A DNA stretch of 64,000 bases from Adhaeribacter radiodurans (GTDB taxonomy: Bacteria > Bacteroidota > Bacteroidia > Cytophagales > Hymenobacteraceae). The notes under the pieces are model-generated. The model saw only the letters and a list, made by a program, of their open reading frames with translations. It had not been told where the DNA came from and ran no database searches. The stretch covers positions 3,162,001 to 3,226,000 of the forward strand of contig NZ_CP055153.1 of the NCBI RefSeq assembly GCF_014075995.1, written 5' to 3'. Made by a program: the position numbers and the translations under genes. Positions 60,039-64,000 of this stretch are shown piece after piece (position 1 is the first letter of the stretch; the number at the start of each line of letters is the position of its first letter).

Positions 60039-60650
60039 ATGGCTGAAGATAATTTTATAAATAAAATAAAACATGAGTGGGAGGTTTTAACGGGAGAAGC
60101 CGGAAAAGATAAAACGTTTTGCAGCGAGCAAACTTATGCTGATGAAGCTACTGCACAAATAGCTTATAAGGAGGGGAAAGGTCGCTTGTACACGGTAAAT
60201 AGCTGGAGTAAACTACCCGGCATAAATTCTACGTTTAAGCTGCATAACACACAAGGACAACCTATCCAGGAAAAACCCGAAAAAGGCTATTTTATTCAAA
60301 TAATCTTACCAGGAATAACCGTAGAAAATTGGGTGCAAATAGAAGATATTCAAGAAGATGAAAATTCTTCTCAATTTACCGTGCATCCCTGCTCTAACCC
60401 TAATAATGGATCAGCGGAAACGCAGCATTTTTTTGTAAAAGAAGCGAGCAGTACTTTTCGGATAGAGCGCCAGGGCAATGTATTACGGGGATACCAAATC
60501 GGTAAAAACGAAAAAATCAATAATCAAAATTATCAGGCAGGTAGCCGGTCTTTTCTAAATACCCTTATTGCTGCCGGTGGGTGGGCAGGTTTTCAAGATA
60601 TTCAATGGGGAAAGTTAACGGACTACCTGGCCGGTAAAGTAGATGTTTGA
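60039..60650 (+). CDS. Hypothetical soluble protein, 203 aa
   Basis: No family is recognised. The sequence has a mixed alpha/beta character with several aromatic strands (HEWEVLTGEAGKDKTFCSEQ, TYADEATAQIAYKEGKGRLY, GYFIQIILPGITVENWVQIE) and ends in a tryptophan-rich part (GGWAGFQDIQWGKLTDYL). There is no signal peptide or membrane helix. It is single, between terminators of serS and of its own, and is convergent with the zinc finger gene. Confidence 0.7.
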   Translation: MAEDNFINKIKHEWEVLTGEAGKDKTFCSEQTYADEATAQIAYKEGKGRLYTVNSWSKLPGINSTFKLHNTQGQPIQEKPEKGYFIQIILPGITVENWVQIEDIQEDENSSQFTVHPCSNPNNGSAETQHFFVKEASSTFRIERQGNVLRGYQIGKNEKINNQNYQAGSRSFLNTLIAAGGWAGFQDIQWGKLTDYLAGKVDV

Positions 60651-60653
60651 TAA

Positions 60654-60700
60654 AGATTAGAAGTTCTATTGTCCTATATTAAATAGAACTTCTAATCTTT
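60654..60700. terminator. Bidirectional intrinsic terminator
   Basis: A 16-17-bp stem (agattagaagttctat with its complement, 60654-60669 and 60683-60698) lies between convergent genes and overlaps the end of the zinc finger gene. Confidence 0.85.
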
Positions 60701-60968
60701 AATAACTGGCAGATTGCTGATCCGGATAACACCAGACCCAGTACTCTCCTGGTTCAGCGGAGGAAACTACCGGATGTTGGCTATCCTGAAAATGTTTAGT
60801 AGCATGCTTGTTCAGTGAGTCGTCACAGCAATGCACTTTACCGCAGGTTTGGCAAACACGTAAATGCACCCAGGTAGAATTGGTTTTTACACATTCTTCG
60901 CAGTAGTGTTTATCCGCTGGTTTTAATTCGTTCAGAGCCTGAAGATGAGAACAAAGTTTCTTATTCAT
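60699..60968 (-). CDS. UBP-type zinc finger protein
   Basis: The 89-residue protein is a single UBP-type (ubiquitin-hydrolase-like) zinc finger. The ligand pattern is C6xH8, C23xxC26, C39xxC42, C47, H55, H59, H65. In eukaryotes this fold recognises the free C-terminal Gly-Gly of ubiquitin; the partner in bacteria is not known. There is no signal peptide. It follows the response-regulator/flavoprotein gene by 98 bp on the same strand, and the three genes from 60.7 to 64.0 kb look like one module. Confidence 0.88.
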   Translation of the reverse strand: MNKKLCSHLQALNELKPADKHYCEECVKTNSTWVHLRVCQTCGKVHCCDDSLNKHATKHFQDSQHPVVSSAEPGEYWVWCYPDQQSASY

Positions 60969-61066
60969 TTACTTTTTATCATTTAACATTTATCAGGTAC
61001 CATTTATCCTTTACTTTTAATGCAATCTAATCTGTGGACTATGGACTATGGTCAGGGGACTAACAA

Positions 61067-62728
61067 TTAATTTTCGGCTAAATACTCGTGAACTAGTTTA
61101 ATAGCCATAGCTCCTTCACCAACGGCCGAGGCAATCCGGTTCATGGCCCCGGACCGAACATCGCCAGCTGCAAATACTCCGGGGTAGCAGGATTCTAGCG
61201 GGAAAGGTTCCCGATCCAATTTCCATTTTTTGCGAAAGTTTTCGTATTTAATTAGCTCCCGGCCTGTTTCAATGTACCCTTTGCCATTGGTCATAAAATC
61301 TAGTTTAATACCATCGGTGCAAGGCTTAGCGCCAATAAAGATAAACAGGAAATGCGATTTCACTTTCCAGCACTCCTTCGTTTCCACGTTTTCCAGTAAT
61401 AATTCTTTCAGGCGACTATCGCCGTGAGCCTCTTTTACTACGGTCCGGTTTAGTAGTTGAATGTTGGGAGTATTGTTAATTTGGTCAATTAAATACTGAG
61501 ACATGGTTGCCGCTAAACTTTGCCCCCGAATTAAAATATAAACTTTAGCCGCAAATTTAGATAAATACATAGCTGCCTGCCCCGCCGAATTGCCGCCGCC
61601 TACTATATAAATATCTTCATCACGGGCAGCTACGGCTTCGGTGGTGGCAGCACCGTAATAAATGCCGGCACCGGTAAAATTATCAATGCCGGCGGCTGGT
61701 AATTGCATGTAATCTACACCGGTAGTGAGTACAATACTGCGGGTTTTAATTTGGGTACCATCGGTAAGTACCAGAATTTTGTAGCTGTCTTTTAACTGAA
61801 TATCTACTACCTCCAGGGGAGCTAAAAATTCTGCACCCAAGCGGGTAGCTTGCGCAATGGCACGACGGGTAAGTTCTGCCCCGGTAAGCCCCGTAGGAAA
61901 ACCCAGATAATTTTCAATTTTAGAACTAGTTCCGGCCTGGCCACCAGGGGCTCGTCGCTCAACTACTAACGTTTTTAATCCTTCCGATGCTCCATATACT
62001 GCTGCAGCTAAACCGGCGGGGCCTGCCCCTATAATTACCACATCGTATAAATTAGCGGCAGCAGTAACGTTTAAGCCAATTTTGGTAGCCACACTTAACA
62101 AATCCGGATTTGCTAAATAACTACCATCTTCAAAAAAGAGAGCCGGTAAATTTTTAGCATCCATTTTACTTAAATCCAGTAATTCCTGAGCTTTAGAATT
62201 TGTCTGGATATCCAGCCATTGATACGGAATTAAGTTTCCGGCCAGAAAATCTTTAATAAGGTGCGATTGCGGCGACCACTGAAAACCTACCAGTTTAATA
62301 CCCTGAAAATCTGGTTTAAAATTAATAAGCCAATCATCGAGCAAGTCGTCTAATATAGGATATAATTTTTCTTCGGGTGGGTCCCAAGGCTTCATTAAAT
62401 AATAATCGAGTTGCACTTTGTTTATGGCCTGAATAGCGGCATTAGTATCAGAATAAGCCGTTAGAAGTACGCGTTTTGCATCGGGATAATTTTCTTTGGC
62501 TTGTTCCAGAAAATCAACTCCTTGTAAGCCAGGCATTCGCTGATCCGACAGAAATAAAGCTACCACTTCGCTTTTCAGCTTTAATTCTTTTACTATTTCC
62601 AGTGCTTCTTCACCCGACTCCGCGGTTAAAATGCGGTACTCTTTTCGGTATTTTTTACGCAAATCCCGCTCAATTGCCCGCAGTACCTGCGGATCATCGT
62701 CGATAACGAATATAATAGGTTGCTTCAT
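61067..62728 (-). CDS. Response regulator fused to glutaredoxin-like and thioredoxin-reductase-like FAD domains
   Basis: The 553-residue protein has three parts. Residues 1-130 form a receiver domain with acidic D10/D11, phospho-acceptor D62 (LSDQRMPG), T90 and K113. Residues about 143-225 look like a glutaredoxin fold in which the CxxC is replaced by WSPQS (residues 151-155). Residues 228-553 are thioredoxin-reductase-like with FAD site GAGPAG (234-239), NAD(P) site VGGGNSAG (376-383) and GVFAAGDVRSG. The usual CxxC of thioredoxin reductase is missing (YYGAATTE at 357-364). No DNA-binding domain is present. Phosphorylation may control the flavoprotein. Confidence 0.9.
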   Translation of the reverse strand: MKQPIIFVIDDDPQVLRAIERDLRKKYRKEYRILTAESGEEALEIVKELKLKSEVVALFLSDQRMPGLQGVDFLEQAKENYPDAKRVLLTAYSDTNAAIQAINKVQLDYYLMKPWDPPEEKLYPILDDLLDDWLINFKPDFQGIKLVGFQWSPQSHLIKDFLAGNLIPYQWLDIQTNSKAQELLDLSKMDAKNLPALFFEDGSYLANPDLLSVATKIGLNVTAAANLYDVVIIGAGPAGLAAAVYGASEGLKTLVVERRAPGGQAGTSSKIENYLGFPTGLTGAELTRRAIAQATRLGAEFLAPLEVVDIQLKDSYKILVLTDGTQIKTRSIVLTTGVDYMQLPAAGIDNFTGAGIYYGAATTEAVAARDEDIYIVGGGNSAGQAAMYLSKFAAKVYILIRGQSLAATMSQYLIDQINNTPNIQLLNRTVVKEAHGDSRLKELLLENVETKECWKVKSHFLFIFIGAKPCTDGIKLDFMTNGKGYIETGRELIKYENFRKKWKLDREPFPLESCYPGVFAAGDVRSGAMNRIASAVGEGAMAIKLVHEYLAEN

Positions 62729-62904
62729 TTACCTTTACCCCTAATTAGTAGATGGATTATTATTTCTAGAAAAAATTACTTTGCTAATAAAGGCACAGTT
62801 AAACTAATTCTTTCTATATAGTTAAGAATTATTTACAAAAAAAAGCGAACCAGTAAAACACAGCAGAAAAATTGGGAATTATATATTAGTTCTTAAAAGG
62901 ATTA

Positions 62905-63999
62905 CTAAACAAACTTTTCTTGAGTGCAAAGTTCTAAATTTATGGGTAAGCAAACTTTAAACACGGTTTTGCCGGTTTCTGATTTTACTTTAATAGAACC
63001 CTTGTGCTGATTAACAATAATACGTTGCGAAATTTCCAGACCTATGCCGGTGCCCTTTCCTACACCTTTGGTAGTAAAAAACGGTTCAAAAATGCGTTCC
63101 TGAATATCCAGCGGAATACCTACTCCATTGTCCTGAAACTCAATTGAGACCATATTTTCGTCAATGGGATCGATATAGGTCCGAATTTTAATTATTCCTT
63201 TTGGCGGAACCGCATCAATGGCATTATCGAGTAAGTTGGTCCAGACTTGGTTGAGCTCGCTACCGAAGGCATGGATTTGCGGGATGTTCGTACCAAATTC
63301 TTTTACAACCTCAATTTCCTTTATTTTTAATTTATGATTTAAAATTATAAGCGTATTGGTAATGCCTTCGTGTAAATCAATGTTTTGGTACTGCGATTCC
63401 TGATCCATGTAAGTATACGCCTTTATGGCCTGAAGGAGAGTGCTGATCCGTTCGGTACTTTGCTTTAATTCCTGCGCTAAAAGGCGCATTTCAATATCTT
63501 TGGGCATCCAATGCAGGAAATTAATAATGTGCTCCGGTAACAACTGTTCCGCAAATTCGGCCAGCATGTCGCGGGTTATTCCTACTGATACAAAAACAGA
63601 GGCTACATCCCAGGCATCTTCTACCCCTTGCTCTTCGAGCCAATCCAGCAGTTCATCTTCGCGGTCGTTTTTTTCGAGGGTATTTAATTTTAAACCTTCG
63701 AGCTGCATTTTTTCATAGAGCGGCAAAAAAGGATCACCGGGTAAGTTTTTTTCTTTAAAAACAACGTCTTTCAACATCTGCGACGAGTGCGTATCAAAAG
63801 CTTCCAAAGTATTTAGTAAATTTTGAGATGCTCGTTTCGCCGCCGATGCCGGATTATTTAATTCGTGGGCCAGCCCCGCCGACATAGTGCCCAAGGAAAT
63901 TAATTTTTCGCGTTGGTTGGTAAGCGTATTTATTTCTTTTGTGCGTTCTGCCATGTTGGCTAAAATTCGTTTGCGCACAATAGAGCAACTGCCCATCAT
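62905..63999 (-). CDS. Sensor histidine kinase, visible C-terminal catalytic part (probably extends past the window)
   Basis: The open frame reaches the right edge. It has the H-box SAGLAHELNNPASAA (His45 in window numbering), a long DHp helix region (about 30-230), and an HATPase_c domain: N-box VWTNLLDNAIDAVPPKG, then EFQDNGVGIPLD, and FFTTKGVGKGTGIGLEIS. The first visible Met sits right at the edge, and the sequence before it (CSIVRKRILANMAERTKEIN) looks like a linker, so an N-terminal sensor domain is likely cut off. A cyclic-nucleotide-binding-like sensor is common in this type, but that is inference. It lies upstream of the response regulator gene by 176 bp. Confidence 0.9.
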   Translation of the reverse strand: MMGSCSIVRKRILANMAERTKEINTLTNQREKLISLGTMSAGLAHELNNPASAAKRASQNLLNTLEAFDTHSSQMLKDVVFKEKNLPGDPFLPLYEKMQLEGLKLNTLEKNDREDELLDWLEEQGVEDAWDVASVFVSVGITRDMLAEFAEQLLPEHIINFLHWMPKDIEMRLLAQELKQSTERISTLLQAIKAYTYMDQESQYQNIDLHEGITNTLIILNHKLKIKEIEVVKEFGTNIPQIHAFGSELNQVWTNLLDNAIDAVPPKGIIKIRTYIDPIDENMVSIEFQDNGVGIPLDIQERIFEPFFTTKGVGKGTGIGLEISQRIIVNQHKGSIKVKSETGKTVFKVCLPINLELCTQEKFV

Positions 64000-64000
64000 T

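Follow-up and report, generated by a model that had tools for sequence, protein, structure and literature searches.

The window analysed here is a stretch of 64,000 nucleotides from Adhaeribacter radiodurans (contig NZ_CP055153.1, positions 3,162,001 to 3,226,000). Close to its end, three genes on the minus strand encode, in 5′ to 3′ order, a histidine kinase, a receiver domain fused to a flavoprotein related to thioredoxin reductase (TrxR), and a small zinc finger of the UBP type (zf-UBP). The gaps between them are 176 bases (kinase to fusion) and 98 bases (fusion to finger). Open reading frames (ORFs) and Pfam matches confirm what the original prediction, made from the letters alone, had proposed, namely three genes in one orientation with the kinase directly upstream of the fusion. 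The analysis confirmed that observation, which proved stronger than it had been stated, and partly supported its interpretation: the module is real and widespread, and most likely the kinase switches a TrxR-like flavoprotein whose thiol chemistry is lost.

The fusion gene (61067..62728, 553 aa) encodes three domains, all read from the minus strand. The receiver (PF00072, residues 6-118, 62375..62713) carries D10-12, D62, T90 and K113. In an alignment of 108 rows, of which 104 bear a receiver (the four receiver-less rows were left out when receiver residues were counted), D62 and K113 were present in 104/104 rows and T90 in 103/104, and the acidic pocket was almost as constant (D10 in 103, D11 in 102 and D or E at position 12 in 102 of the 103 non-gap rows). 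The claim that the fusion keeps its phosphorylation residues was thus borne out. The middle of the protein holds a degenerate glutaredoxin-like domain (about residues 141-220, 62069..62308), predicted to be arranged as beta-alpha-beta-alpha-beta-beta-alpha, whose sole Pfam match is Glutaredoxin (E 0.015, under the cut-off). The glutaredoxin motif is CPxC; in its place the window protein has SPQS, and both cysteines of the pair were found in 0/108 rows and one of them in 3/108.

The C-terminal part of the fusion is a TrxR-like FAD/NAD(P) domain (residues 228-552, 61073..62047; PF07992 at residues 228-539, Pyr_redox_2 at 111 bits in Pfam) with its Rossmann motifs present (G234, G236, G239, G377, G378 and N380-G383, invariant in 14 rows). 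At the place of the CAVC motif in the housekeeping TrxR of this genome, the fusion reads AATT, and across the 108 rows the four columns hold A/S/G, A/S/G/T, a variable residue and mostly T/S/V, with a cysteine at the first or fourth column in none. Against the NCBIfam model TIGR01292, the fusion scores 218.5 bits, under the curated cut-off of 343, and the housekeeping TrxR, which carries the CAVC and has a gene to itself, scores 387 bits. The identity of the fusion as the housekeeping TrxR was therefore excluded and, since no row has a cysteine at either CxxC position, we conclude from the alignment that it is a relative of TrxR without the residues for TrxR chemistry. Hence, the earlier description of a receiver joined to a TrxR-like flavoprotein stands for both end domains; it had overlooked the middle domain, and the redox CxxC is absent. 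An AF2 model of the fusion, built on a 14-sequence alignment (mean pLDDT 85.9, low at about residues 260-278), was closer to L. lactis TrxR in its flavin-reducing conformer (5mh4, TMt 0.87) than in its flavin-oxidising one (5mjk, 0.61), a likeness that is a hint only.

The kinase gene lies partly outside the window. Its in-window part (62905..64000, minus strand) had been given a start at the ATG at 63999, which was wrong: the full gene runs from 62905 to window coordinate 64386 (493 aa), 386 bases of it lying beyond the window, and its N-terminus is a cyclic-nucleotide-binding (cNMP-binding) domain (Pfam cNMP_binding, residues 48-131, 61.8 bits, cut-off 27.5). The H-box, GLAHELNNP, contains H174 in the full numbering, which was present in 89/89 non-gap rows of 91 aligned relatives; after it, conservation is partial for some 130 residues until a strongly conserved stretch begins again, and the HATPase domain spans residues 377-482 (HATPase_c, 83.5 bits in Pfam).

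We looked for co-occurrence of the three families in 148 genomes of Bacteroidota, the phylum of the window, calling the kinase and the flavoprotein body at E at most 1e-60. The body was found in 23 genomes and was headed by a receiver in 20 of these, and the kinase was found in exactly the same 20 genomes (Fisher p 4e-25, uncorrected for kinship; since much of the positive set belongs to one family, f21, the p values overstate independence). The absence of conserved co-occurrence, which had been named beforehand as one of two refuting outcomes, thus did not appear. In 19 of the 20 genomes, the kinase lies within 300 bp of the fusion. No kinase match at E 1e-60 was present in the other three body genomes, where the body has no receiver: in G103 its head is a cNMP-binding domain, and in G122 and G138 it is headless.

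The same pairing was seen across phyla. We took the best 80 of at least 591 relatives of the fusion in genome contigs, a set that favours receiver-bearing members because the best-scoring relatives were kept, and these loci came from 11 named phyla and one unassigned. A kinase relative was within 400 bp of the fusion in 58/80 loci and inside the fetched stretch in 68/80. Its side, counted by gene midpoint, varies: it is upstream in all 25 adjacent cases of Bacteroidota, and downstream in 10/10 of Actinomycetota, 7/8 of Acidobacteriota, 5/7 of Cyanobacteriota and 2/2 of Chloroflexota. On plasmid p1 of Streptomyces fungicidicus, the fusion, the kinase and the UBP finger genes overlap by 4 bases each. 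Co-occurrence, together with a linkage that survives such changes of gene order, ruled out chance neighbours, and both co-occurrence and adjacency support the proposal of one module, with the kinase as the partner to be expected for the receiver.

The finger protein (60699..60968, minus strand, 89 aa; PF02148 at residues 23-85, 51 bits, cut-off 22.7) has as its best Foldseek match the bacterial zf-UBP protein RPA1320 (PDB 2ida, TMq 0.82), which shares its fold, 46% identity and the CCDDS motif and carries only a hypothetical-protein label in the PDB search; HDAC6 was also matched. Among 73 unique bacterial sequences (116 matches to our own HMM at a score of 40 or more), eight Cys/His positions, the pattern of the zinc ligands, were invariant, as were W77, S51 and an aromatic residue at position 79 (73/73 each), and R37 and D49 (71/73 each) and Y or F at position 81 (72/73) were nearly so. 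Eight fingers with D or N at position 80, from Streptomyces and two Acidobacteriota genomes, also lack C6 and H8, a joint loss that would fit the loss of one metal site. By its sequence, the finger is related to eukaryotic ubiquitin-binding fingers and lacks their key arginine: the position aligned with the arginine of the HDAC6 CGR(Y) motif, which we take to bind the C-terminal carboxylate of ubiquitin, holds S in 62 sequences, D in 4, N in 4, Q in 2 and A in 1, and Arg in 0/73.

The finger is linked to the flavoprotein body, also where there is no kinase. After two of 18 matches were dropped (under the Pfam cut-off, with internal stops), 16 of the 148 Bacteroidota genomes held a finger, and 14 of these also held the body, with the finger within 1.6 kb of it in 12; in the other two, the genes are 16 kb apart (G099) or the finger is on a separate contig (G122). 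Twelve of the 20 receiver-fusion genomes hold a finger. The finger is thus an optional third part of the module. On plasmids of Rhodococcus, Rhizobium, Agrobacterium and Burkholderia, the finger stands beside cNMP-headed or headless bodies; a comparison drawing on 60 of 118 and 60 of 87 records gave a finger-body distance under 600 bp in 17/17 plasmid records common to both listings, mostly from Rhodococcus and Rhizobium. In Rhodococcus, a cNMP-binding domain replaces the receiver on a homologous body, and one plasmid run, in Rhodococcus sp. PD04 (L208:1-5936), consists of a J-domain protein, CbpM, ClpB, TrxA, the finger and the cNMP-headed body. The finger thus accompanies receiver-headed, cNMP-headed and headless bodies alike, and this linkage extends across phyla. 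Among about 60 finger genes, several of them from one genome, the body or the kinase was at most two genes away in at least 12.

In our view, these results probably reflect a two-component system that has a thiol-independent NAD(P)H flavoprotein as its output and a zinc finger as an adaptor; for this system we infer phosphotransfer, binding of FAD and NAD(P)H, a direct contact of the finger and an electron acceptor. The kinase would read a signal through its cNMP-binding-type N-terminus and phosphorylate D62 of the fusion, and the phosphorylated receiver would alter the conformation of the TrxR-derived FAD/NAD(P)H body. As the body no longer appears to perform classical thiol-disulfide exchange, it would probably either hand the electrons of NAD(P)H on to an acceptor other than a thiol or serve as a switch that responds to nucleotide or redox state. 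The finger would be a small zinc adaptor and, since it follows the body even without the kinase, its role is most likely to act on that body or to tether it; the conserved surface of the finger is equally compatible with a shared small ligand and with docking to a transporter. Since the receiver swaps with a cNMP-binding domain, and the kinases of the receiver type carry such a domain, this suggests that the same kind of input reaches the body by two routes, directly through a cNMP head or through the cNMP domain of a kinase and phosphorylation. DNA binding or the production of second messengers is the output of most response regulators; the earlier claim that the output here is not DNA binding was supported, and if the flavoprotein is indeed switched by the kinase, phosphorylation would act directly on redox metabolism, through a system seen in 11 named phyla.

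Several results weigh against this reading. The finger was near the fusion in only 23/80 stretches and anywhere in 29/49 of the non-Bacteroidota genomes searched whole, and so is not essential; moreover, in the stretches shown, no such body is annotated near the fingers of Hymenobacter volaticus, Variovorax SRS16 and Oscillatoria PCC 7112. A histidine kinase was absent from 12/80 fetched stretches, three of which (L097, L099 and L119) are short contigs and the others not, and in one Bacteroidota genome (G133) the kinase is unlinked to the fusion, on a different contig. The cNMP-binding stretch of the kinase, which would be its input, is poorly conserved among relatives. A cysteine at residue 368, near the catalytic place, is present in 77/108 rows (Ala in the window protein), so that the family may still have some thiol role. 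Finally, the genomes and the loci are related, and the counts are not independent.

A tentative alternative assigns the finger to the membrane. As a docking tail, the finger would link the NAD(P)H flavoprotein with cation transporters of the membrane, in the style of KefF on KefC, and under redox or electrophile stress the flavoprotein would gate the exchange of K+ and H+. The finger forms the C-terminus of CPA2-type antiporters with TrkA_N in three loci (L109:5634-7772, L227:5079-7484 and, in Deinococcus ficus, L207:3213-5249; Pfam), and a further antiporter-finger fusion was found in G085 (L182:3971-6100, local profile/phmmer match). These fusions span three phyla, and the one in L109, an Acidobacteriota metagenome-assembled genome, is directly beside the fusion and the kinase; L227 comes from a genome of that phylum sample. 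Besides, there is a CPA2-DsbA-UBP gene run in G042, and an exchanger gene overlaps that of the UBP finger in Micromonospora. G042 and G085 are the sole two of the 16 finger genomes without a body, the finger there being in a tight run with a CPA2-type antiporter or fused to it. An LtrA membrane protein also ends in a zf-UBP finger (L232:3685-5112), and LtrA follows the kinase and the finger in Pelatocladus and is near the kinase in Aphanothece and Nostoc edaphicum. In the known case, KefF, a 20 kDa FMN quinone reductase, controls the CPA2 antiporter KefC by binding to its KTN/RCK domain, with zinc at the interface and without a requirement for enzyme activity, according to the accessible passages of PMC10224563. 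The flavoprotein is here proposed to act likewise, as an oxidoreductase that binds and controls such an antiporter, although those passages describe no receiver or UBP finger.

The counts across loci speak less for docking to transporters. Only 1/80 fusion stretches has a CPA2 gene scoring at least 100 bits to the L109 antiporter, in a weak search in which the G042 antiporter scores 66, and an LtrA gene is present in just 2/80. A CPA-type exchanger was fused to, or at most two genes from, 5 of the about 60 finger genes, and the finger is also found beside a GlpD-like FAD dehydrogenase, a zinc-type dehydrogenase and DUF5996. In addition, the residues of the finger stay conserved whatever its context, a pattern that agrees equally well with a single shared ligand. 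A broader version, to which we give slightly less weight still, is that zf-UBP, as a portable plug, connects an NAD(P)H flavoprotein that is free of thiols and switched by signals, under either a receiver with its dedicated kinase or a cNMP head, to cation transporters of the membrane such as CPA2 K+/H+ antiporters and LtrA, phosphorylation or redox state gating ion flux. If so, the ubiquitin-binding finger of eukaryotes would have its ancestor in common with a redox/ion adaptor and not with a tail reader.

It is rather unlikely that the flavoprotein is the sensor instead of the output, with its FAD/NAD(P)H redox state controlling the phosphorylation of the receiver or the kinase and thereby reporting the redox state of the cell. 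Such a role would suit a protein with no thiol centre and no evident acceptor, and also the lack of a recurrent third gene. At E 1e-5, no conserved fourth gene was found among 77 neighbour ORFs, hand-picked from 150 listed, nearly all from non-Bacteroidota loci (the LtrA ORF of L088 was added by hand and the listed one of L117 omitted): the commonest Pfam family, a LuxR-type HTH, was matched in 4 ORFs, and the other families in at most 2 each among the 25/102 shown. However, an intact receiver next to a kinase is normally an output arm, and the heads that swap on one body resemble input modules on an effector, which argues for the flavoprotein as the output of the kinase.

By comparison, it is very improbable that the fusion is a thioredoxin or AhpF-type reductase in the true sense, controlled by phosphorylation. 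The match to TIGR01292, at 218 bits, the annotation of some cNMP-headed relatives as thioredoxin-disulfide reductase and the consecutive genes for trxA, the UBP finger and the cNMP-headed homologue in Rhodococcus would agree with it, yet the score is below the curated cut-off and all 108 rows lack a Cys at either CxxC place as well as the glutaredoxin-type pair; the missing cysteines contradict the annotated name. We give as little credence to the idea that the finger recognises a bacterial ubiquitin-like protein by its C-terminal glycine tail; the original prediction had suggested, by analogy with eukaryotes, that some other glycine tail may be read. The zf-UBP fold is genuine, with W77 and the aromatic residues at 79 and 81 kept, and R37 could act from another place, but the CGR arginine is missing throughout and 0/108 flavoprotein relatives end in GG, and tail reading by the eukaryotic mechanism thus gained no support.

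Parts of the proposed kinase-switched system have precedents. Receiver-TrxR fusions have already been published (PMC5847659) and have the same two end domains as the window fusion; the accessible passages of that paper name no kinase partner, glutaredoxin-like middle, thiol loss or UBP finger. The proteins named cyclic nucleotide-binding domain-containing thioredoxin-disulfide reductase share the thiol-less body and the neighbouring UBP finger (Rhodococcus, Rhizobium and Agrobacterium) and differ by a cNMP-binding head in place of the receiver, for which reason they would need no kinase; in the Rhizobium and Agrobacterium members, this head was assigned from an N-terminal alignment, not from Pfam. 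Receiver-headed plasmid members are annotated as FAD-dependent oxidoreductase. TrxR and AhpF share the C-terminal fold, the best Foldseek matches of the fusion being TrxR; in contrast, the TrxR CxxC and the Trx-fold Cys pair are both lost in the fusion. AhpF (4xvg) was paired with the fusion over 562 columns at an rmsd of 20, and so the two are alike in domain order only. What was known already is the receiver-TrxR kind of fusion, the cNMP-headed product name and the structure of a bacterial finger (2ida). A literature search, with most subscription papers outside its reach, found no paper on the trio, on thiol loss in the fusion family or on finger-antiporter fusions. The bacterial UBP fingers, so far unassigned, gain a partner that recurs and a link to ion transport that can be tested, which bears on the origin of the ubiquitin-binding finger.

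A defence system was also considered and rejected, as the four proteins matched 0 PADLOC families at E 0.001. In a promoter/terminator scan, sites were no more numerous than in shuffles. Around the module, a 203-aa ORF (60039-60650) converges on it and has no Pfam match and no relatives in the 80 loci. Just outside the window, 18 bp upstream of the kinase, is a 99-aa ORF (window coordinates 64405-64704, L002:7406-7705), with no Pfam match and, in the 80 loci, one relative (L064), which likewise stands just before the kinase. After the antiporter-UBP fusion of G085 come a Zn-protease-like gene and RimK (L182:3971-7471). A DUF5996 gene adjoins a stand-alone UBP finger in two loci (L179:5828-6748 and L214:4803-5750, from Pfam and record annotation), and neighbours of the finger that look similar, by appearance only, are present in L196, L198, L221 and L223.

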